Shown: positions 2,981 through 57,402 of the stretch, one piece after another
Position numbering within the stretch: position 1 is the first letter of the stretch
How the letters are laid out: every line of letters starts with the position of its first letter
Source: Kondoa malvinella
Taxonomy: Eukaryota > Basidiomycota > Agaricostilbomycetes > Agaricostilbales > Kondoaceae
Assembly (NCBI GenBank): GCA_039545315.1
Contig: BCIM01000008.1
Span: forward strand, 883,286-947,285
Direction of reading: 5' to 3'
DNA: 64,000 bases
Notes under the pieces: model-generated
Database searches by the model: none
The model's input: only the letters and a program-made list of their open reading frames with translations
What the model was told of the DNA's origin: nothing
Made by a program: the position numbers and the translations under genes

Positions 2981-5900
2981 ATGCTCGCCAGCCCGAAATG
3001 GCTCATTCTGGCCTTTGTTATTCTGCTTTCCACCTCTGGTATTGAAGCCAACAGCAAGCGAGCTCAGCCTTTCAAGCGAGTCTTTACACCTCAAGCACCT
3101 TCTATACGGATATTGAGAAGAGAGACGAATCCGCAAACTCTAGTCAAGCGTTCTACTTTTGCTCAAGATGCTGCTGTGTTGCATTCCGATACCCTGCTGA
3201 TGCGCTTCTCTGTGGATGGCGAGCCTGTCTCAGTAGTTCTAAGACCGAGTAGAGACCTCGTTTCACCAGTCGCCAAAATCAACTATCACTCGACCGATGC
3301 GCTTGGCAGGAAGAGTGTTAAATCTATTCCGCTGCTTCGTCAAGATTTCCGCGCATACGAGGGCGTGGTAGTACACGAAGCGCATGTGAACAAATGGTGG
3401 AAAGAGGAAGCGGCCGGCCTTGTTCGCGGAGATGAGTTGAAAGATGAAAGGACAAGAGGTTGGGCTAGAATAACGCTGAGGCAGCAAGATGATGCTTGGG
3501 ATGGAGCAATGAGCATCGATGGGCATCTACACCACTTCAAACCTCTTCATTCATACCTTCGAGACCGCTCATCTCGTGACCCCGATCCGCCAATCTCTGC
3601 CTTGGCTCGCCGCGGCAGACCTGGTGGAGCTACAATCATAGCAAGAGAACGTGACGCATACTCTGATCATGAAGCACATTCTTGCTCTCACGACACGCTC
3701 GACTTCAACATCGACTCGCACAACCCAATCTACCAGTCTGCGCGTCAAATTGCATTCGATGATGCTTTAGGCTTCTCCAAACCGCAACCACAATCCTGGC
3801 TGGGTCACATCCTGGGCGAGCAACCACATCCCCGTTCTTTTCGTCCATCGCATCATCACAAAAGGCAAGACATCGCGGGCACGACAGGAAATGACGGCCT
3901 GAACAGCACTTCCGGCTTCGTCGATTCTATAGGCTCTACAAATGGCTGCCCGACAGATCAGCGTGTGCTCTTCATTGGTGTTGCAGCAGATTGTACCGCT
4001 GTCCAAAGCTATGGAAGTCAAGATGAAGCTCGCCAACAAATCTTAGCAGAGATGAACACTGTCAGTGGACTATATCAGCGGACCTTCAATGTCGCTTTGG
4101 GTGTAGTAGAGATGGAAGTGATGGATCCCAGCTGTCCAAGCAGCTCTAACGCGGATGTCGCTTGGAATGTGGCTTGTGGATCAAACAATGTGGACCTCAA
4201 CACCCGTCTCAGCTTGTTCAGTCAATGGAGAGGTAACAAAGGTGGTTCCGACGGTGCTGGATTATGGCATTTGCGTGAGCTAGCTTCTTTCTACTGTTGA
4301 TGTCTTTGGCTGATGTTTTGAATAGTAACGGCCTGTAATACTGGTCAAGAAGTTGGTGTCGCATGGTTGGGTCAGCTTTGCCGGGTCGAAGCTAGCTCGA
4401 GCAGAGGTCAGACCACCAGTGGGACGGCAGTGACCGCTTTGACGGACCGAACATGGACTGTCATCGCCCATGTATGTCGTGCTTGTTATCATCCGATTAC
4501 GAGCTGACTTACATCGGGCAGGAAATCGGTCACAACTTTGGCGCTGTACACGACTGTGTCTCCGGTTGCTCAGGCACAAGTCAAGGATCTCAAGGAGGTG
4601 GACAAGCATGCTGCCCTCTATCTCGCAGCAACTGCAACAGTGGTAGCGAATACATCATGTCGCCCGTATCTACGCAAGATGTCAGCGATTTCAGTCCTTG
4701 TTCGATCGGCAATGTGTGCTCTGTGCTTCAATCCACGCTCAATACTACTTGTCTCTACGAACCCGGCCAGCGTGCTACGCTGTCGACGCAACAGTGCGGT
4801 AATGGCATCCTTGAACCTGGCGAAGAGTGCGATCCAGGAAACGATACCGGCTCGTCTTGCTGTACTTCCGACTGTAAATTCACCCAAGGCTCTGTTTGCG
4901 ACCCGGTCAACAGCGCCTGCTGTGAAGATTCCTGTCAATTCTCGCCTTCGTCGAAAGTTTGCCGAGCGGCTGTCAATGCGGAGTGCGATGTAGCAGAAAG
5001 CTGTTCAGGCAACTCGGCAGATTGTCCTGCCGATCAGACTGTGGATGATGGTCAGTCTACTCTTGCTCATAATGTACTGTAGCTGACGACTTTGATAGGC
5101 ACGACTTGTGGCAATCCAGATGATGACTTGCAGTGCGCCAACGGAATATGCACCAGTCGAGATCAGCAATGCAGAGAACAAGGCGACTCATTGGGCATCA
5201 CACAAGCTTGTGGGGACGCTCGCTCTTCGTGTCAACTCGTAGGTCTCCTTCTCTGTCGTTACTCGCATCTAATGTCTCCCTCAGACATGTGAAGCACCTG
5301 GCCAGCCCGGATGTGTTGTGCTTGACTCGAACTTTGCCGATGGTACGCCTTGCGGTGGAGCGGGCAAGTGCGAAGGCGGCCAGTGTCAAAGAGGAGCTTG
5401 GCAAGATGAAGCAGCCTCGTGGATCACAAACAATAAGCAAATCTGTCAGTCCCTGACATCCTCGTTTGTCCTCATTTGCTGACTATCTTCTAGCAATACC
5501 TGTCATTGTCGTTGCTGGTCTTATCGTGCTGGCCATCCTGTACACCTGCGTTCGCTCATGCTGTCGCCGAAGCAAGCGCAACCGTACTGCTCCCTCAGCG
5601 GCCTACAACAAGCGCAAGAGCAAGAAGTCGAAAGTGGCCGCGATTGTTCCAGGTGTAGCTGCTGCGGGACATCACAGCAATCACAGTTCGCTTACGAACG
5701 CAAATGGCTCATACAACAACTACGCAGCTCCTCCGCAGCCAAATGCTGCAAGCTACAACAACTCTCAAAGCTCGCTCATGCGGGAGACGACGCCTAGTAT
5801 CAGGAACTCTTTCGGTCAACAACCTGCTTTTGGCGCGCCTAACTATCCACCTCCGTCAGGAAACTATCCGGGTCAAAGTCCAGGCGGCTTTGCTGCTCCA

Positions 5901-6041
5901 GCACCATCTTATCAGCCTTCCTATTCTAACCGAAGTTCTGCTCAATATGCAGCACTAAGCGGCCCACCACCACAGTCTTCGCCATTAGGCTGGAATCCTC
6001 CTCAAACCCAAGCAAACACACAGGGCAATTGGGTTGAGTAA
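2981..6041 (+). CDS. ADAM family zinc metalloprotease, type I membrane protein
   Basis: Six exons: 2981-4274, 4326-4471, 4522-5050, 5099-5238, 5285-5444, 5494-6041. Domain order: a signal peptide starting MLASPKWLILAFVILL; a long prodomain with dibasic KR sites and a KRQ site just before the catalytic domain; a reprolysin-type metalloprotease domain with the zinc motif HEIGHNFGAVHD (three His ligands, catalytic Glu); a cysteine-rich disintegrin-like domain starting near CGNGILEPGEECDPG; a second Cys-rich segment; one membrane helix (IPVIVVAGLIVLAILYTCV); and a basic then Gly/Pro/Ser/Asn-rich cytoplasmic tail. This is the layout of fungal ADAMs, predicted surface sheddases. All key residues are present, so it is likely active. 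The second intron falls exactly between the His and Glu of the zinc motif. The ATG at 2981 is chosen because it opens directly on the signal peptide. Confidence 0.95.
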
Positions 6042-6495
6042 GTTACAATGTTATTAGACTTGAAACCCGAGACTGAAGTGTCTCTTCACAGTCCGGCGGC
6101 ATACAACGGCAATCGCACAGATCTGTGAATATGAGGTCGTTCATTTCAAGGACAATCGCACTGTGTAATATTGTTATGCATTGACAAGATACCCACGCAT
6201 CGTGATCTGTCTCCAGTAGCCCTTGATCTGTCCTTGACCAGTATTGATCGGCAGAGGACATGAAAATGAAGATAGAGTCAAGTAGATGAGCAGCAAAGTC
6301 TAGTGAAGGATAGCATTTGCTTCATTCATATATGTATGTACAGATCACACCAAGAGCTCAAGAATATGCGCATGCCAGAACTGAATCGCCGAACCAAGAA
6401 TGGGAGAACAAAGCTGATATGCGAGATGCCTTGGTGAAGATGCAATATTGGTCGATCCAAGCTGGGCCGTTTTATGATATAGTGGTGAGAGACGA
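6042..6495. other. Convergent intergenic region
   Basis: It lies between the stop codon of the ADAM gene (plus strand) and the stop codon of the nucleolin-like gene (minus strand). No gene is seen; it must hold both 3' ends. Short frames on both strands lack motifs. Confidence 0.5.
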
Positions 6496-8521: not shown

Positions 8522-9463
8522 TTTGAATTATAGAAGGGTGATCGACTTGAGCAGTGTAGTAGTCAATGTATAGACGAGTCGTAGAGTGAGAAGAGGATCT
8601 AGTAAGATACCTCTCGGAGTCGTTGCAAGAAGAGAAACGACAAGCTCGTCAAAAATGTGAAATTTTTCTCGCTCATCACGTGATGTCACCGGTGCCTCTA
8701 AGGGCGATGAAGGCACAATAGACAGAGAGCAGAAGCAATCCAGGTCATAGTACACATCTAGTCTATTCCCCTGCCTTGACTGCACTGCTGGCTCTTCGTT
8801 ATAGCTTCTAGCTGATCATAAACCTCCCGCATCTGGGGGGGGGCAAGAGCACAGATAAATATCTGATCGCAACACGTAGTGACTGTGCACCGTCGCTCCG
8901 ATCTTTCAGCAGATCAAGTAGCATCTGACAGAGAAACGGGTAGCATGCTTCGAGCATGCATTATCAGGCCTTAGCAAATGAAAGGACACTGGCTGTCGTG
9001 GCAGGGACAGAAGCTTTAAGTAGAGCACCGTGCATCCGCGACCGCCAGACGAGCAGAGCATCAATACAGCGGCTCATACTTGAGTTGCACAGATAGCGGC
9101 TAAACTGGACAGCTAGCACAGTAAGACGCTTGTTATTGAGGATCCGTGAATCAGATGAGACAGTAAGACAGTGCACGCTTTTGTACCAGTGGTAGGATCA
9201 TGGAAGAGACAAGCAGTTGGCTTGGACGCGCGAAGAGATATCGCGTCGCGATGAAGCTACGGTAGTGCTTCAATGAGCGGGCTAGTTGCAAGCGATTCGA
9301 GAGGCACAGCCAGAGAGATAGACCAGATAATACAGAGGGCTGCAGAATCGCTGAAGAGTCCAGCGAGCAGATCTCGCCTGCGTGTTGTCATTTGATCCAT
9401 CTCGCTCTCGTCGGCCACTCTTCCTCGCAGTTCTATTCTCTGGTGCTTCCACAGAGCTTCAAG
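8522..9463. promoter_or_regulatory. Divergent promoter region
   Basis: This 942-bp gap separates the start of the nucleolin-like gene (minus) from the start of the hydantoinase B gene (plus) and must carry both promoters. It contains a run of nine G at 8835-8843 and a perfect inverted repeat at 8943-8959 (arms GCATGCT / AGCATGC, loop TCG). I looked here for the hydantoinase A half of a fused 5-oxoprolinase and found no recognisable segment. Confidence 0.5.
8943..8959. repeat. 17-bp perfect inverted repeat
   Basis: Arms of 7 nt (GCATGCT and AGCATGC) flank a TCG loop. It sits about 420 bp upstream of the nucleolin-like start and 500 bp upstream of the hydantoinase B start. It could be a protein-binding palindrome or chance; no second copy was noticed nearby. 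Confidence 0.5.
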
Positions 9464-12400
9464 ATGACTAATGAACGACAGCGTCCAAAAGCGGACCAGA
9501 TCTTGCTGTCACTATTCGCTAACCGCTTCGTTCGTTGAGTCGTTGACGAGATAGTCTGGCTGTATTGGCTGACAAGACAGTGCAGATGTCTGTAGCAGAG
9601 GTGAGAGCTCCTTATGCATGCCGCGTTGATAGCTGAATTCCTAATGTAGGCTATGGTTCGTGTGCAAGCTTCAGTGCCGGCGATTTGTTATCTCATGCAA
9701 GAAAGTAGGGCAATGCCTTGAGGTCCGCTCACTGCTGCGAGACTCAAGATCCCCTTACTTATATTAGACGAACAGGCAGAGCTCCATTAGCACCAACATC
9801 AAGGAGAGATTGGATGCAAGTCCAATTCGGTCCGAGAGATGAGGATGATCTGATGTAGCATACTACAGTTCTCCTGCGCTATCTTTGCTCCTACTGGCGA
9901 TCTCAGTGCGTCGAAACTCTACCGAAGTGATCTATAGCTGATGTATGCCAGTCGCCAATGCTCCGCGTGCGTATTAGCGCAGTATGGGACTTATTGATCT
10001 GACAGCTGCTTTCTACAGATCTGCCGTGCGTACTGTGCAGTGTCGTTCGTCCTCGGCTGATCCATCTACCCCTAGTGTCCATCTAGGCAGCATGTCCTTT
10101 GCTGTTAGATATCAAATAGATTACCTGAAAGATGACATCAGAGTAAGCTCTCGTCAACTTGCAAGACGGTATCTCATTTTTGCTGTAGGAGGGCGATGTG
10201 ATCAGTCAGTCTAATCCTCTGTGTTCAATTCTTGACTCACGTTTGCATAGTGGCTAACCACCCTCAAGCTGGAGGCTCGCATTTACCAGGTAGATCATGT
10301 CGCTCTTCTCCATGAGCGAAGCTAAATAGATATCAGATATTACCGTCATTACGTTGGTCTCATGGATAATTCACTCCCTGTTACAAGATTGACCTTTTTC
10401 GCAGTCCCGTATTCGAGAACGGAAAGATTGTCTTCTTCACTGCGTCACGAGGTCACCACGCAGATGTGGGCGGTATCTTACGTGAGTTGTAGTCAGCGTT
10501 CCGATTTGTGATTCTGACAATCCAGTGTCGACGTACAGCTGGATGTTAGCCCTCCTTTGTTTCTCGCTTGACGTGTCAACGCTGACTTGAACAAAGCCAT
10601 GCCGCCTACTTCTAAAACATTGTTTGAAGAAGGAGCGCAGATCAAGTCCTTCAAGCTAGTCAACAAGGGCGAATTCCAGCACGACGAGCTTGTTCGATAC
10701 ATGGTCGAAGAGCCTGCCAAGTCCGCTTGCCTTTCCTTTATACCTCATTGAGAGTAGACTGACGTTGATTCAGGTATGAAGGCTGTTCCGGTACCCGTTG
10801 CATGTCGGATGTGGAATCGGATCTTCGAGCACAGATAGCAGCAAACCACAAGGGAGTTCAGCTGATCGGCAAGCTGATCGTGAGCTGCATTCTCTTTCTC
10901 AGCATAGAAAAATCTGACTTGCTACTCAGGACGAGTACAGCTTAGAAACAGTACAAGATGTCAGTGTTCTGCTCCGCCTTGTATTGACGATAGCTAACAT
11001 CGCTTTAGTACATGCTCCATATCCGAGATAACGCAGAACAAGCCGTTCGACAGCTGCTCAAGGGAGTAGCGAAAGAACGAGGTACTAAACTAGAAGCGCT
11101 TGATTATATGGACGACGGAACACCTATACAGCTTGCCATCTCGATAGATTCCGATGCTGGCTCTGCAGTCTTTGATTTCGAGGGGACTGGTCCAGAGATG
11201 ATTGGTGACTTTACTTCATCAGTGACAGTCGATGGTTCTGATCAGTCTTTAGGCAACTTGAACTGTCCATTATCGGTCACTTATTCTGCTATCATCTACT
11301 GTCTGAGATCCATGGTGGACATGGATGTGGGTTTCTAGCCTCTGTCATTGACCGTCACTGATTCCATAAACAGATACCGCTGAATCAAGGGTGCTTGAAA
11401 CCCATCAAAGTCATTGTACCGCCTGGCTGCTTGTTAGATCCGAGCGAGACCGCGGGTGTAGTAGCTGGCAATGTTTGTACATCTCAAGTGAGTGCTTGTC
11501 GGGCGTAGCTAGTAAAGCTCTCATCACTTTATCAACAGCGCATAACAGGTTCGTGCGACAGTCGATCTTGCGAATCAAAGCTCAACAAGATGCTTGGCAG
11601 ACGTTGTCCTGAAAGCATTCAAAGCATGCGCAGCATCGCAAGGAGACTGCAATGTCGGTCAATCTCGAGCTTGGAAGCCCAATTCCGCTGACCAATTGAG
11701 GCAGAATTTGACCTTTGGTGCTGGAGGTAAAGATGCAGAGGGCAAGCATGTAGAGGGCTGGGGCTTGTGAGTGTTGAGCTATTCATTGCTCGCCAGCTGC
11801 TAAATCATCATACCTTAGCTACGAGGTCAGCTTTCGGTGCATTGTAGGGTGCCGAGCACTCATCATTTCTGGCAGACGATAGCAGGCGGCTCGGGTGCAG
11901 GAAACGGATGGGATGGAACAAGTGGTGTCCATAGTAAGCAAACGTCTGGCAGTCTGACCTTCAAATGCTCAGTCGTTCACTCGCGTCGTCTTACAGCGCA
12001 TATGAGTAAGCAAAGACAACTGCTTCGTCAACTTGCCACTGAAGTTGCTCGTAGCTAACACCCGAATAACTGATCCTGAAATCTTGGAAAGGCGATATCC
12101 AATCTTGCTACATGAATTCTCGCTTCGCACGAGTAAGTCATCCTGCCTGTACTATATTGAGATTTTGACAATATTCGCCCAGACTCTGCAGGTAAAGGCT
12201 TGTACAACGGAGGCGAAGGCGTTGTGCGAGATATTGAGTTCCTAGAGCCAATTCAGTGCAGCATTCTCTCAGGTCTGCCAACTACTCATCTACCTTCGCA
12301 AAGCTGATGTGATTTACAGAGCGCCGTGTACATCAACCGTACGGACTTGAAGGCGGCGGACCGGCGGCGTGCGGGCAGAATTTATGGATCAAGCAACGCA

Positions 12401-12683
12401 GAACCGAGGACGGCGATCGGAAAGAGAAAGAAGACAGACCACCCCGATGTATCAACCTTGGAGGTAAAGCGACTGTGAAGATGGGTAAGGGCGACAGAAT
12501 CATCATCAAGACGCCAGGCGGAGGAGGCTATGGATCAGCAGGCGGTGACAGGCATGCTAGAAGCGCTCGGGCACATCATGCTGGTCAAGCTCGGTGCGTG
12601 TATACTCAGCCGAGAAGTCCGCTCTGCTGACACTCAACAGCGGCACACATGCAGATCGTTTGGCAGAGCAGGAAGGCGCTTAG
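9464..12683 (+). CDS. Hydantoinase B / 5-oxoprolinase (HyuB domain only), 29 exons
   Basis: Exons: 9464-9529, 9586-9600, 9650-9655, 9709-9722, 9776-9815, 9869-9905, 9952-9966, 10019-10025, 10076-10142, 10189-10204, 10251-10289, 10337-10352, 10405-10481, 10539-10544, 10597-10720, 10774-10879, 10930-10959, 11009-11326, 11374-11487, 11539-11548, 11601-11653, 11705-11766, 11819-11825, 11876-11933, 11997-12005, 12055-12132, 12183-12272, 12320-12593, 12641-12683. They sum to 1797 nt, 598 residues plus stop, with no internal stop. The product follows the HyuB family end to end: [99 protein letters not shown] and the usual [14 protein letters not shown] end. HyuB works in ATP-dependent cleavage of 5-oxoproline, normally fused to or paired with HyuA. 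No HyuA is present. Intron 9816-9868 is GC-AG (GCAAGT). Confidence 0.92.
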
Positions 12684-12766
12684 CATTGATGTACCATAGC
12701 TGATCACGGTCGCTGCTACGGACGAAACCGCTCATGTAATTGTGTTTTCGGATCATCATCTCGCTG

Positions 12767-13585
12767 TCAAAGTAGCTTCAGGTGCCCAGTGATTTGATTG
12801 ATCAGACGAACAGGTGCTGGTCCTACACCGAGCACCGTTCTGCTGCCAGCTGCGATTTGTGTCCGACCTCTGAGCACAGCATAAGAAGCTGGTCTGACAG
12901 GGATAGTTGTAGACGTACGCATCTTGAATGCTTCGAGCGCATACCTACAAGCAGTCAGTATCTGTAAAAGGGCTTTGGGAGGAGAAAACTCACTCCTAGA
13001 CTTGTTGCCTGAGCCTCGAGCAAAAGCAGCTCATCTTCACTTTCTGCCTTGAGCGCAATCTTTGTCTGACCGTATCGTTCCCAGTGACGCAGTAGAGCAG
13101 GATTCGACTTGTTCAATGCTTTGTAGCAGGCCAGTGTTGCATGTCTAGAAAAAGGTCAGCGCAAACGAACATATGTGAGCAAGCGACAGACCCGCATTGC
13201 GCAGCTATCTTGCCCTTGGTCATGCCTAGATCTTGACGGACAACCAATATCTGCGAGCGTTCAGGCCATGCCATTTTCTGAAGCAGGCTACCACCTTACC
13301 AGCTTGCATTCTTCCATCATGCCTGGCTTTACGCTAGCCAGCTCATTGTCTAACGGCTCTTCCTCGTCGCTTTCTGCCTTTTCAGAGGCTGTATCGTCCT
13401 CTGCAGCTGCCTCTTCTGCCGTTTCCCCTCTCTATTTCAAAATATTTCGTGTCATCATTCACTTCGCGCGTACCATACTTCGGACGCACTGTGATGTCCA
13501 AGCTACTCCCCGTAGCATAGAAATAGCCAACCAGGCATCCGCAACACAGTCCAGCCAATACACCGGGCCATTGATTCGTCGACAT
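12767..13585 (-). CDS. PTH2: Peptidyl-tRNA hydrolase 2 (Pth2 family)
   Basis: Six minus-strand exons: 13585-13490, 13431-13300, 13250-13192, 13144-12994, 12944-12919, 12869-12767. An N-terminal membrane helix ([17 protein letters not shown]) is followed by an acidic linker and the PTH2 domain: [60 protein letters not shown] and the conserved end ITGHLKLL. Pth2 releases peptidyl-tRNAs that drop off the ribosome. The N-terminal helix suggests anchoring to the mitochondrial outer membrane, as in yeast and animal Pth2. The residue pattern of the catalytic region (Lys in TKGKIAAQ, Asp and Thr in QDAGRTQ) is intact. The last intron splits the alanine codon in QDAG. It ends only 83 bp from the convergent hydantoinase B gene. 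Confidence 0.95.
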
Positions 13586-38011: not shown

Positions 38012-40895
38012 TTATAACAGATGATAAGACCCAAAGTCCGCAGCCAATATACCTTTGAGAGATCCAGTCATCACTGCTTGAAAGTGCCGATGACTGCCAA
38101 CGATTCAAAAAGTACCTTTCAATCGAAGAATAACACTCACTGGTATCGGAGGCATATTTCGCAACCACTTTAGGGTCGTGCAACATCTGCGAAGGCATGT
38201 GAGTACAGTGGCAGCGCATCAAGGGGTGTAAAGCTAACGTTGAACTCCTGGATAGTCGCAAGCACGATATGAGCGAGACGTCTGAAGGCTGACAGCTACA
38301 ACTTACCTCACTACACTCCTTCCCGGCATAGAGCTGGATGGCCTTGGCACCTGTGAGACCGTATTCAATTGGCTGCACGTCGTATAAGAAGCAAATGCCC
38401 GACCTCCTGGGTGATCATTCTGGAAGCTGGTAACGTCGAGCACTTGACCATTCACAGCAACCCAGAGGTCATCCTTGGAATTATGTTTGGCAAGCTCGTC
38501 GAGGGATATTTCTCGAAGATCCTTCTTCTTTGGCAGGTTTTCCTCTGTTCCGTGTGGAATTTGCATCTTGGTGTCGCCTTCCGAAGGAGGTGGTGTAGTG
38601 TCTTGCTGATTGCCTTGCGAGCTTGAGGAAGAGCTAGTGACAGAAGGTTTGCCATCTTGGCCTGCCCACGAGAACTCGAGAGTAACGTTTTGCGAGTCTG
38701 GCTTGATGGTGATCTTGGTAGTAAGCTGGTTGGCTACTTGAGTCAGACGTTCTTGAGCCTGAGATGAGCCGACGGCGCCAGAGCTCATTTGATTCATGAG
38801 ATAGGCAGCGGCGCTGTCTGCGGCGACTCTTCCGAATACCACACAGCCGAGAAGAGAAGAACCTGGTACCGCGATGGCGCATGAGTAGAGCTCGTACTAT
38901 AGATGGTCTGCATTCACCTCCCAAGCGATTGGCTCCATGTACCTGCATGGTCATAAGTACTTGTCCAAAAGCTTGGCTGCCAGACCTACACCTCCTCCAA
39001 TTTCACCAGCTCCCCAGACACCTATGCGGAAGATACATCAGTCCTGTTGCATTGTCAAGGCGCGAAAGGCTTACCAGGGATGACCTTGCCATCAGTGTTG
39101 ATGATTCTCGAGTGTGGATCAATTTCGATGCCGCCCCTAGAGTATTCAAGCTTCAGTAATGAGGCTACGATTGGGACAAAGCGCGTGCATCGTATAGTGC
39201 AAGACAGGCTGCAGCGCTGTGTGAGAACATCCTTCATATTGCGGAGTTTTCTCTTACCTCCATCTGCGCAACGTAAAAAGTGTCGTTGGCAGTAGTCTTC
39301 CAGTTGTCAAAGAACTTCTTGCCGAAAGGATCCTTCTTGTTGCCTTGCGCGATTTCAGCATACTCTGCGTAGGTCTCTTCGAGCTTCTTGACTGGAACGC
39401 CCATTTCCTCCGAAAGACCCTTGTAGCCTTCTATCTTCTTCATCAAGCCACGTCCGGTGCTACAAATGACAGTCAGCATTAGTTGAGATAAAGGTGAGAT
39501 AGACGCACTAATGCTTGCAGTGCCATTCAATGTCCTTGGAAGCTTCGGTGCCAAGAATCAGCCTGACAAGAGATTTTTCTTTGGGAAGCCCAAAGATGCA
39601 GCCAGTAACATAGTCGCGATGGCCGAGCTCATCGCAGAAACGTTCTCCGGCGCCGTTCAACAGAATACCTTAACAAAATCGTCAGATCCAATTTATCTCA
39701 GGAAGATTACTACTAACCACCGGCACCACGCAAAGCCTCGGCAGCCAAGAACTTGACCTTCGAGTCGGGCTCTTTGGGATCAATGAGACCAGTAGGGTGA
39801 ACTTGAACTTTCTCGAGATCAATCGGCCGTCCGCCAATTTTCATCAGCATCTTCAGACCATCACCAGTGCAGTGCTCTCCATTGGTAGTCGATAGAGGGA
39901 GCGTGTCTGGACGATGCTTGGCTCTGAAAGAGATGTCAGTAGAGGCCAAAGTTGGGAATTAAGAGCGACATACAGAAGACCGTCTTTGTCAAAGTCTGCA
40001 GCGTAACCTCCGGTAGCAAGCTATCGCTAGCATCAGTGCCATGGTCTGCCTGAGCTGAAAGAACGAACAATGACAGGTCCACGAGCGATCTTTTCTTCGC
40101 CCTTCAGCAGGTATTTGCAGCCAACAACAGCGCCGTTCTCCACGATGAGCTCTTTGACGTCAGCCTTCTTCCTATTGACGCGAAGCACGTCAGATCCCGC
40201 AAAAGAGCCCTGGAAGTCAGCACTTACAAGATTTCCATTCGCTTTGGGTCCGTCTCCGCCAATTCTTCGAGCTTCTCCATCAAAGCGTAGGTAATCTCCA
40301 TTCCAGGGAATTGAGCTGTTCCCCTATGTGTTCTAGGCTGAGAGTGACCACCCAAGCGACCGAGTTTGGTCATCTTGAGGTTGAAAGCATCTTCGAGCCA
40401 GTCTACGGCTTCACCAGAGCGACCAGTAAGGACTTGAATCAGGTCATCGCGAGCTAGTTCTCGGGCCTGATATCAATTGTAAGCGGGATCCGTATAATCG
40501 AGAATAAGAACGTACACTCTTCTTGGTGTCTTCAAAGAAAATGGCTTTCGAGTCTGCAATGCCCTGGTCGCCTTGAGTACGTGTACCGGCTCCGTTGATG
40601 CCTGGGAGGTCCGCATGATCAGCCAGCTCAACATATCAGGCCGTATTAGACCTACCTGAAGTCGCTTTGGTAGAGTTGCCACCTTTGACGCTGTCAGCGC
40701 GGCTTCTATCTTATACACCGTAGGCCTACCGTGGAAACCATTCTTGTCCAAATGCAAGACGCTATTTTCCCATTATCAGCTCGCGGACTAATAACGTTAG
40801 GGGAATGCGACTCACCTGGCTCCGCGTTCGTAGAGCGTGTGAGCAGCAGATAGACCGGCCAGACCGCCTCCGACAACGATAACGCGAGATGACAT
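38012..40895 (-). CDS. Soluble fumarate reductase with C-terminal cytochrome b5 domain
   Basis: About 19 minus-strand exons from 40895 (MSSRVIVVGGGLAGLSAAHT) to 38012. The N-terminal Rossmann FAD motif GGGLAGLSAA is followed by GGNSTKATSGINGAGTRTQ, LGRLGGHSQPRTHRG, TGDGLKMLMKIGG, VQVHPTG, LAAEALRGAGGILLNG, RFCDELGHRDYVT and the closing GGVHGANRLGG, all features of Osm1/Frd1 fumarate reductases. These use FADH2/FMNH2 to reduce fumarate to succinate and recycle NADH without quinones. A cytochrome b5 domain follows at the C-terminus, with heme-His motif DHPGG and AIQLYAGKE. Catalytic Arg/His residues are present. The b5 domain includes a 9-nt exon (38247-38239), and one intron (39188-39137) starts GC. 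An upstream ATG frame (to 41108) is probably untranslated leader. Confidence 0.94.
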
Positions 40896-54051: not shown

Positions 54052-54468
54052 ATTGGGAAAAGGTCGGGATGGGATTGCTTGTAACAGAAGCCTTTAGAAG
54101 CCGTGTTCGAACGAGAGCAGCTGTATCGGAGCACTGTTGATGAGCACTTGGCTGCTGACAAACGGGCGGTAGGAGCCGTAAGTAGAAGACGGCCGAACAA
54201 AACAGTCCAGCAGAACGGCCTGGCTAAAGGAAATAAGGTGGAAGATAATTTCTGAACGACTTCCCCTTTGTGTTGCGCGGAACTGCGGCCAACAGTGTTG
54301 ATATTGACAAGTGCTTTATGCTCTGCTGTAAGTGTATTCTATTCCCAGTCTTCATGCAAGAACTGCTTCGTCCCGATCTACCAGCAGAAGAGTCAGCAAA
54401 CAAAGACTGCCTACCGAGTACAACATACCTCATACACCATCTTTTGCCCTGTAGCGAAAAGCATCAAT
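54052..54468. other. Promoter of GH17 gene and ULP1 3' flank
   Basis: 417 bp between the GH17 start (54051, minus) and the ULP1 stop (54469, minus). Frames are short; nothing else is recognised. Confidence 0.45.
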
Positions 54469-56269
54469 TCAGTCTCCGTTAAGCACAAATTGGCACCTAC
54501 TTAGATACTGCAAACGATCGAAATCAGTTTCGTGTTTCGAAGGCAAAGACGAGCGAGACTCACAGGCATGTTCTCTTGAGCAAAGTCCAGCGTAGCATCT
54601 TTCCTCGACAAGCACTCCAATGTTTGGCTTGTGAACTGTGTTCTTGCTGGTCAGCGTTCAACATTTGTCGGAAAACAATGTCACGAACAACACCGCAATC
54701 GAACCCATTCATCTGTTGCGGTACGTCCTAAGAGACAAGTGAGCAACAGGCTAGAAGATTGTTGACTGAGAGAGCGCACAGGATGCTCGTAATCGACCCA
54801 ATCAGACAGATCAAGCGGTTTCTTCTTCTTGTCCTGGTGTTCCTTCTGCAGATAGTCGCGAAGTCCCTACACAGGTACTCAGCGCCATACCTCGAATGGC
54901 GAAATGACTTACCTTGAGGATGGTCGCATTGGAATGACCCATAGAATCGTAGAATTCAAAGCGCTTCTGCCTGACGTTGATGCAAGCGCAGACCCAATGA
55001 GCGTTTCCGAGGTTGATAGGCATAAGAATAGCGTCGCAGGCAAAGACGTCAACCTGAGAATTAGGGCTGAGCTGACAAAATGCGCTGGAATGTGCTCGGC
55101 TTACTTTCTTCGTCCACCGCCTGACACCTTCATATCCAGCCGACTGGAGCTTATTGTAGAAGAATGAAGTGAAAGCATGGACTTTCAATATCTCTTCGCC
55201 CGCTTTCACCTTCTTCTTCTTGCCTGCGCCCTTTTCCTGCAACACGCCAGGGTTCTCCTTTTCATTCTCCTTTCGTTCTTCTTCTGTAGCTTTTGATCTT
55301 GTGTTGATGAGGATTGCATAGAAATTGATAACTTCGTCGTTGAGCCATTTGCCCGGTTTCAGCAATCGAATGTCTTTTGCTGCGACTTGTGCTCCAGTCA
55401 TGTTCACCACTAGACCATTATCGTTCATGAATTGTGTAGCGGCCTTTTGATGCTCTGGAGCCAAGGCAGAACGGAATTTGCGTCTTCTCAGCGAGCGTTT
55501 CTCCAGCTCTTTATCTAACGCAGCTTGTTTGCGTTGTAGCTTTTCGTGAGCTGATAGTGTAGGTGTAGAGATAGGTGGAGCAGGTGACTTGAGAGAAGAA
55601 GTGACATTGGCAAGAACGCGCTGGAAGCCTTCAGACTTCTTTTGACCTTTGTGCAATTGAGCAACTTCTCTCAGTACTGGATTCGTGTTTGGCGCAGCAA
55701 AGCCGCTGTTGACTCTTCGATGGGCAGAAGCGACTAGTTGAGCATAAGAGTTCAAGCCTTTGTACGTATCCAGGTTTTCCTTGAAGTAGCCTTTCGCCAT
55801 GAGCTCGCGATGCTCATCTTCTAATGCTGGAGCCTGAGCAGAGGCAGTTGCTAGACGATTCTGCTCTTTGTACTGTAGGGCTTGTTTGCGAGAATGCGAG
55901 AATAGGTCTCTTTGAGATTGCAGGCCAGAGATTCGCGGACATGCTGTTGCGTTTGATCTGACTGAGCTTGTCGAGACTGATCGAGCCAAGCTGGAAGATG
56001 GACCAGAGAAGGAAGTAGGGCGAGCAGGAGGAGGTTGCAATGATACAGCAGAGACAGGGTCAACAGGCGTATTCGAGGCTGGGCGACAACAAGATCATCA
56101 TTCCATGTTGCAATTCGATGACCAGCTGTGGCTTACCGCTATTGACAGTGAAGGATTGAAAGAGGTTGCCTAGCGCGGTAAAGCCAAAGTTGCTGCTCGT
56201 TCGACGCTTCTTGAACGCGGGCTGCGACGTATCCTGACCAGTGGGCGCTGGTCGCTTCAAGCTCATCAT
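54469..56269 (-). CDS. ULP1: ULP1-type SUMO protease (peptidase C48)
   Basis: Seven minus-strand exons: 56269-56137, 56078-55105, 55053-54913, 54867-54780, 54727-54689, 54635-54564, 54507-54469. The long N-terminal region is basic and disordered with a probable nuclear signal (FKKRRTSS). The C48 domain starts near DIRLLKPGKWLNDEVINFY. The catalytic triad is visible: His in NLGNAHWVCACI, Asp in FEFYDSMGHSN, and Gln/Cys in QQMNGFDCGV. It closes with LDFAQENMPYLSR. Ulp1 matures SUMO and deconjugates it, usually at the nuclear pore. The Cys exon is only 39 nt and reading without its intron gives a false longer C-terminus, so the splicing here matters. All active-site residues are present. Confidence 0.93.
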
Positions 56270-56413
56270 GCACACGCTGCTGTGTATACAGGTTTCGGGT
56301 ATATATGCGTCAAGTCGAATTGTTTGGGAGCAACATCCGAATGTCGCGAAAGTCACAGTGTCAGCGCTTTCTGATGTCATCAGGATACAGCATGGGATTG
56401 CTTGCAAGCATCA

Positions 56414-57402
56414 CTACTGACCATCCGGCTCTTTCGCAATCTGCAACATATCCCTCAACACTTGATTCTCCCTCTGCAGCCTCTCGAGCTCAACGTCCCT
56501 CATCATAGCTTCATCCATATCTTTCCCACCACCAGCTTGTTCCATCTTGACCAATTTCTGATTCAACAAATTCACATACCCTCCCAACCTCGCTGTTATG
56601 CCTTTACTCGGAGGTAAACCGAAACCAATCATAGGACCTTCTTCGCTTAGTTCCTCTTCTTCCATGAAATCTCTCAATTCAGTATCGTTCGTTACTGGTT
56701 CGCCTTGTGATGCGCGTAGTGCTTTACGTAAGAGATCCGTTAAGCGATAGAGGGAAGCTTGGACCGCTATCGGATTTTCGTAACGTGGGTTGGACAGGGA
56801 GTTGGAAGGTTGGTGTTGCGCTTCAGAGAGAAGGTCTTCGTAATGTCGCGCGAGGGCTAGATCGTGTTGTTGTGTAGAGTGGGCAAAGGTTCGGAAGCGC
56901 GACATGACTGATTCTAAGGTGCCTTCGTAGTCTCTGCAACATGATATGAGCGATGAATAGGTGATCATACTAGATCTTACTTGACGAGCATAGAGAGCTG
57001 CTTGTTCTCATGCTGTAGCGCGTGATTCTCCAACACAAGGGTCGCATTCAGCCTTTCGAGTTCCGATTCGAATTGCTCTGCTCAAGACATCAGCTGCGTT
57101 CAAGACCTGGCCGCTGCCGCATACCTTGTGAGATATCCGTGTTGTATCTCCTCAAGGTGAAACCAGTGCTGTTATGAACGGCTTGCGTCTGTGAAGCTGA
57201 TTAGCGTTCGCTCGCTAGAACAGCGCTGTCCCCCCACCTTGAGATCCTCTGCCTGCTTTTGTAAAGCATCACACTGTTGTCTATTGGCATTCAGCTGCTT
57301 GGATAGCTCAGACAAGAGATTCCAAAGTCTTGACACAAGTCAGTGCTTCCGATTTTGCGTCGAGGGGAGCGCCTACCGGTCATAATCGCCGTCCACTGCC
57401 AT
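56414..57402 (-). CDS. SIKE/FGFR1OP2-family coiled-coil protein (STRIPAK-associated)
   Basis: Minus strand, five to six exons from 57402 ([20 protein letters not shown]) to 56414. Helices follow the SIKE/FGFR1OP2 order: [18 protein letters not shown], a short linker with [67 protein letters not shown], and the closing [21 protein letters not shown] that matches the C-terminal QLEQENKGLRxxLQI signature. Animal SIKE binds the STRIPAK phosphatase complex; fungal equivalents belong to the SIN-inhibitory or Far complex. Assignment rests on pattern similarity, so moderate confidence. It sits 145 bp upstream of ULP1 in tandem. Confidence 0.78.

Follow-up and report, generated by a model that had tools for sequence, protein, structure and literature searches.

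The gene structures closest to the one described here come from other basidiomycetes. Like the hydantoinase B (HyuB) gene of Kondoa malvinella studied in this work, the bglA genes of Rhodotorula minuta and Sirobasidium magnum belong to basidiomycete yeasts and contain numerous short introns (PMC9142197). The available text of that report gives R. minuta bglA 21 introns with a mean length of 60 nt, 10 micro-exons shorter than 30 bp and one GC-AG intron; exons, which were set against cDNA, can be as short as 6 bp in that species and 5 bp in S. magnum (PMC9142197). The 21 introns of R. minuta bglA interrupt roughly 2.1 kb of exon sequence (22 × 95 bp), whereas HyuB has 29 in 1.749 kb, and while the bglA exons are cDNA-based (PMC9142197), the 11 HyuB exons of 16 nt or less are predicted from genomic sequence. 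The P450 genes of Phanerochaete chrysosporium, a basidiomycete as well, contain micro-exons coding for 2–10 amino acids, the shortest of 6 bp, and frequent introns of 45–55 bp. As far as the available part of that paper goes, these micro-exons occur across many genes and are discussed as a source of alternative splicing (PMC1184071), whereas HyuB has eleven in one gene.

More distant parallels are found in plants and animals. Plant small micro-exons, of 15 nt or less and down to 1 nt, are conserved and mostly unannotated, which is similar to the situation in HyuB; the accessible text mentions one example pair of adjacent micro-exons (PMC8831610), whereas in HyuB there are many, alternating with introns that all fall into a single narrow size class. 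For the neuronal micro-exons of animals that involve PRP-40 or PRPF40A, intron definition has been proposed, the exons being too small for exon definition, and the same is proposed here for HyuB. According to the excerpted report, however, the animal micro-exons are alternative and have conventional flanking introns (PMC8378409), whereas those of HyuB are presumably constitutive and lie between introns of about 50 nt.

Results

The HyuB gene lies on the forward strand at positions 9464–12683 of the analysed 64,000-nt stretch of DNA (the window), on contig C8 of a 19.09-Mb, 20-contig genome; coordinates below are those of the window unless a locus or contig is named. The final model has 30 exons and 29 introns and codes for 582 amino acids (1746 nt plus the stop codon). 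The product is an intact hydantoinase B protein, matching PF02538 with 706.7 bits (curated cut-off 26.8) over positions 1–518 of the 519 in the profile, so that an intact, end-to-end HyuB protein assembled from micro-exons, as proposed in the first-pass annotation, was indeed recovered. A six-frame search of the genome, which could overlook a second copy if this were heavily fragmented, found seven separate PF02538 pieces, all at this locus and none elsewhere. The residues in 263 of 269 near-invariant columns (at least 95% in 40 homologues) are kept, as are 22 of the 23 whose codon starts in a micro-exon. The closest protein among the best 120 of 7995 matches is that of Atractiella rhizophila, at 76% with a hand-made query and 78% with the final HyuB protein, and none of these 120 is equal or nearly equal to the HyuB query. 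In a midpoint-rooted tree of 31 HyuB proteins, the Kondoa protein belongs to a group of 17 rows, supported at 98/95, that also contains rusts, Microbotryomycetes and Atractiella; these are all Pucciniomycotina. The protein falls outside both the rust and the Microbotryomycete groups, and its pairing with Atractiella is weak (89/75). One PF01968 locus, on another contig (C2:1878320-1879480, locus L037), encodes a Hydantoinase_A, the presumed partner. Its ab initio model, which may lack the true 5′ end because the locus was cut there, has 10 introns in 1998 nt, or about 5 per kb, and the presumed partner is therefore far less fragmented than HyuB.

The exons were placed alike by a spliced alignment and by an ab initio gene finder, except for exons 18 and 19, which come from the spliced alignment. 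Exon 1 (9464–9529, 66 nt) begins with the start ATG and is followed by three micro-exons, exon 2 (9586–9600, 15 nt, coding for MSVAE), exon 3 (9650–9655, 6 nt, AM) and exon 4 (9709–9722, 14 nt). Exons 5 (9776–9815, 40 nt) and 6 (9869–9905, 37 nt) enclose intron 5 (9816–9868, 53 nt), which was found by both methods and from intron signals. Two further micro-exons, exon 7 (9952–9966, 15 nt, ANAP) and exon 8 (10019–10025, 7 nt, HLP), precede exon 9 (10076–10142, 67 nt). Exon 10 (10189–10204, 16 nt, EGDVI), exon 12 (10337–10352, 16 nt, DITVIT) and exon 14 (10539–10544, 6 nt, PGS of LPGSMPP) then alternate with exons 11 (10251–10289, 39 nt), 13 (10405–10481, 77 nt) and 15 (10597–10720, 124 nt). The middle of the gene consists of exons 16 (10774–10879, 106 nt), 17 (10930–10959, 30 nt), 18 (11009–11204, 196 nt), 19 (11253–11326, 74 nt) and 20 (11374–11487, 114 nt). 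After micro-exon 21 (11539–11548, 10 nt) and exons 22 (11601–11653, 53 nt) and 23 (11705–11766, 62 nt), the last two micro-exons, exon 24 (11819–11825, 7 nt, YE) and exon 26 (11997–12005, 9 nt, HM), lie on either side of exon 25 (11876–11933, 58 nt). The gene ends with exons 27 (12055–12132, 78 nt), 28 (12183–12272, 90 nt), 29 (12320–12593, 274 nt) and 30 (12641–12683, 40 nt and the stop codon). Eleven internal exons of 16 nt or less, plus the one of 30 nt, carry conserved residues. The micro-exon sizes first proposed (15, 6, 14, 15, 7, 16, 16, 6, 10, 7 and 9 nt) were recovered exactly by both methods, and the spliced alignment also reproduced the start at 9464 and the 7-nt exon at 10019–10025.

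The 29 introns are 46–63 nt long (1471 nt in total, mean 50.7), with 28 GT-AG borders and one GC-AG (9816–9868). Their best branch-point motifs are mostly CTNAY, a few being weaker (CTAAA, CTCAG, TTGAC). Judging from these borders and motifs, they are ordinary U2-type spliceosomal introns; U2 RNA has one locus in the genome. Stwintrons, nested twin introns in which one interrupts a splice signal of another (PMC6616335), were considered and rejected, since at least 6 nt of exon separates all neighbouring introns.

For the spliced alignment, a profile of 40 homologues, picked from the best 120 of 7995 matches, was run against positions 9301–12900 by a dynamic programme restricted to GT or GC donors and AG acceptors, with flat scoring. 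The whole profile was covered by 30 exons and 29 introns with zero frameshifts and the last codon at 12680. The score of 1430.6 compares with maxima of 23.9 for 30 dinucleotide shuffles and 17.5 for the reverse strand. Each micro-exon was also tested separately by shuffling the sequence between its neighbouring exons 200 times. No shuffle was as good for seven of the eleven (exons 7, 8, 10, 12, 14, 21 and 26); the others were equalled by one (exon 2), two (exon 24), five (exon 4, with a gain of 2.0 bits) and 12 shuffles (exon 3). These four, weaker on protein score, are also backed by the ab initio and intron-only results.

The purpose-written two-strand gene finder uses coding phase, donor, branch point, acceptor and intron length and knows nothing of homologous proteins. 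It was trained on 20 stretches of 10 kb elsewhere in the genome (61 genes, 443 introns), without HyuB. In the window it predicted the gene at 9464–12683 including the stop codon, with 28 of the 29 introns exact, none extra and a coding length of 1797 nt, and the prediction did not change when introns of up to 250 nt were allowed. The first-pass annotation had expected automated annotation to miss this gene. The absence of a nearly equal protein from the best matches agrees with this, but HyuB need not escape a gene finder that models short introns, because even our simple self-trained one recovers all introns except one. A set of 123 simulated genes, whose exons were all at least 60 nt long, contained 1787 introns; the finder called 1751, of which 1672 were exact. 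Two of the 1627 internal exons in its output were false ones no longer than 16 nt, compared with 34 exons of this size among 384 in the real sample. Since the simulation was built from coding sequences and introns that the finder itself had called, it is a mild test; with this reservation, we reject the possibility that the micro-exons are an artefact of the finder. Some of its output looks wrong, namely internal exons of 0 and 2 nt, and was not used. In the enolase gene (L019) a 14-nt exon coding for IYDSR and an 8-nt exon coding for MDVA align without gaps to the solved structure of yeast enolase (1ebg). The shuffles, the protein-blind model and the simulation together rule out chance alignment as the source of the HyuB structure.

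The two methods disagree on intron 18 (11205–11252, 48 nt), which is in frame and stop-free; the finder, like the earlier 1797-nt model, fuses exons 18 and 19. Removal of the intron gives 582 amino acids, and when it is kept the coding sequence is 1797 nt. The first-pass structure of 29 exons, 28 introns, 1797 nt and 598 amino acids is therefore matched by the finder in its 28 introns and its length, but homology adds this intron and leads to 30 exons, 29 introns and 582 amino acids. The 16 codons would fall between EMIG and NLNC, positions that directly adjoin each other in 39 of the 40 homologues. The 40th, P0034 of Microbotryum intermedium, has nine residues there, which are perhaps a retained intron in that annotation. 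P0034 contains three insertions at or near HyuB intron sites, as though its annotation had retained introns, one of them in a region that is variable in other homologues too. The borders of intron 18 are those of an intron, and a CTGAT motif begins 14 nt ahead of its final base; its donor, GTGACT, is poor (−0.7 bits). Selection by intron signals alone includes it as long as the threshold does not exceed 4.5; the ab initio model, which takes coding into account, rejects it. Because of this rejection and the poor donor it may be partly retained, and of the HyuB introns it is the foremost candidate for an isoform with a retained intron. Two more HyuB introns, 11654–11704 and 11934–11996, are multiples of three and stop-free.

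Can the introns be found when the coding sequence is ignored altogether? From 1072 candidates we selected the best non-overlapping set by donor, branch-point, acceptor and length scores, regardless of reading frame; these scores were trained on introns of other genes, themselves called with coding information. At a threshold of 4.5, which was chosen post hoc, 29 introns were picked and all 29 were correct. Irrespective of that choice, no false intron was picked at any of the thresholds tested between 5 and 10 (28 of 28 correct at 5, 27 of 27 at 6, 25 of 25 at 8 and 17 of 17 at 10). Looser thresholds gave 29 correct among 30 picks at 4, 31 at 2 and 3, and 33 at 0. Controls at 4.5 produced eight picks on the reverse strand and, averaged over 20 shuffles, 9.4; across 85 long exons, 62 kb in all, the rate was 0.52 per kb. 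Since intron signals suffice in silico, the HyuB exons need contribute no information. The first-pass claim that micro-exons challenge exon definition was thus overstated, as the problem arises only if exons need to be recognised.

Intron length is confined to a narrow range in the sampled genes. Among 470 introns, 451 are 45–66 nt long, three 40–44 nt and five 67–80 nt; none falls at 81–100 nt, one at 101–130 nt, and ten are longer, these ten possibly including gene-joining errors. If any of the 11 HyuB micro-exons were skipped, an intron of 108–121 nt would be required, and six of the 11 would shift the frame. Skipping is therefore disfavoured, because introns of that size are hardly used in the sampled genes. 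No compensating splice signal was detected beside the micro-exons: the 19 HyuB introns flanking them have a mean score of 9.9 bits and the other ten 11.2. Donors beside micro-exons are better (6.5 vs 5.5), acceptor and branch point together poorer (7.4 vs 9.3).

How unusual is HyuB within its own genome? The comparison set consisted of 60 complete modelled genes with a CDS above 600 nt from the sample and the window. Pooled over the set, the density is 4.68 introns per kb; a value of 15 per kb is reached by four genes, one of which is HyuB. Three sampled genes (16.8 to 17.5 per kb) are denser than the ab initio HyuB model (15.6), a figure that rises to 16.6 once the 29th intron is counted. HyuB has the most exons of 16 nt or less, 11, and the next gene five; 17 of the 60 genes have at least one internal exon of this size, so that HyuB is not a lone oddity. 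An actin-like gene (L008 model) has four introns in 1323 nt. No clear 5′ intron bias was apparent, the counts per quartile being 133, 106, 114 and 117 in the other genes and 14, 3, 8 and 3 in HyuB. The available text of a survey of 263 species puts Pucciniomycotina (8 species) at 2.80 introns per kb on average and the densest fungus at 4.5 (PMC8476143), and 7.5 introns per gene are reported for Phaffia (PMC5103461); these densities are a rough guide because gene set and methods differ from ours.

Several other models from the window and the sample deserve mention. A fumarate reductase fused to a cytochrome b5 domain (38071–40895, reverse strand), which we take to be Osm1-like, has 18 modelled introns; it aligns to the solved structure 5glg, and its smallest exon, of 9 nt, lies in the cytochrome b5-like tail. 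A gene with a Ulp1-type protease domain (54339–57402, reverse strand) has 13 modelled introns and a smallest exon of 7 nt, and a fungal ADAM-like protein, with a reprolysin peptidase followed by a disintegrin domain, is encoded at 2981–6128 on the forward strand. Elsewhere, the model at L022:3562-4780 (forward strand), whose motifs presumably indicate an ELO-type fatty acid elongase, has predicted exons of 9 and 4 nt near its start. A zinc-finger-like model at L032:6731-9271 (forward strand) ends, by eye, in a ubiquitin-like stretch and is probably two genes fused by the finder.

Discussion

In this work we have described a gene in which eleven exons of 6–16 nt alternate with introns of nearly uniform length. 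We consider it very probable that HyuB is a functional gene of the nuclear genome that encodes the B subunit of a 5-oxoprolinase/hydantoinase-type enzyme, the activity being predicted from the protein sequence, and that its micro-exons are spliced by intron definition. Each short intron would be recognised as a unit through its donor GTRAGT/C, its branch point CTNAY (most commonly CTGAY), its acceptor YAG and its narrow length, and the exons would be what remains between adjacent introns. Introns only 6–16 nt apart would presumably be removed successively. Splicing in vivo, the order of removal and the absence of exon-borne signals are what we infer from these results.

Could the gene instead be decaying, with micro-exons that are a by-product of forced alignment? 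The four micro-exons whose protein score alone was matched by 1–12 of the 200 shuffles and the lack of a near-identical protein among the best 120 of 7995 matches would fit such a view. Against it stand the score of the whole locus, far above that of any shuffle, the gene finder that arrives at the same structure without protein information, and a frame free of shifts and stops in which nearly all near-invariant residues are retained. We give this explanation almost no credence, and a pseudogene is ruled out by the undisrupted frame and the conserved residues. A recent invasion of the gene by a mobile intron family (introners), whose copies the introns would be, is also very unlikely. The pooled density predicts 8.4 introns for HyuB, whose model has 28 (Poisson tail 2e-8, to be read with caution since counts among the 60 genes are over-dispersed, chi2/df 5.3), and gain or loss has therefore been uneven. 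Yet among 602 modelled introns there is a single similar pair at E ≤ 1e-4, and it has no HyuB member; with so little mutual similarity recent copying is rejected, a result that bears on recent and not on old, diverged copies. The pair itself, L017:6165 and L019:1155 (0-based, gene strand), is 83% identical over 47 nt and is perhaps a recent copy.

An explanation to which we attach somewhat more weight, although we think it unlikely, is that intron signals are insufficient in the cell and that exon-borne or intronic enhancers with dedicated factors (Prp40-, SR- or SRRM-like) include the micro-exons, as in animal neurons. FF domains mark Prp40 and TCERG1, and the genome has two FF-domain loci with seven matches (C12:189005-189829 and 353203-354284), which we take to be candidate Prp40- and TCERG1-type splicing factors. 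Moreover, nearly every tested micro-exon of Caenorhabditis elegans needs PRP-40, and the same is reported for PRPF40A in mouse cells, as far as the available texts go (PMC8378409; PMC11463390). However, donor, branch point, acceptor and length locate the HyuB introns in silico with no use of exon information. In the worm, according to the same partial source, very short flanking introns of 49–58 nt, the size of those in HyuB, make PRP-40 dispensable for micro-exons (PMC8378409), and this agrees with our reading of HyuB as spliced by intron definition. A broader proposal is that the lineage runs intron definition with a strict ruler of about 45–66 nt, that splicing information is absent from its exons, whose size has in practice no lower bound, and that intron length alone prevents skipping. 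This we regard as possible, with slightly less confidence than we would place in an even choice. If it is true, HyuB, with its 29 introns in a row and exons as short as 6 nt, would be an almost pure natural test of intron definition.

Going by the available parts of the earlier reports, HyuB is extreme in quantity only, as basidiomycete micro-exons of 5–6 nt have already been published, some of them with cDNA (PMC9142197; PMC1184071). Genes of this kind may be broken up by exon-by-exon homology searches and by annotation without a short-intron model, as illustrated by the seven pieces in which PF02538 was found. The gene shows how far fragmentation can go without loss of the reading frame, with about one intron per 60 coding bases. 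Because introns alone locate the exons in silico, HyuB offers a direct test of intron definition, and it is also suited to testing in which order introns 6 nt apart are removed and whether special micro-exon factors are needed.
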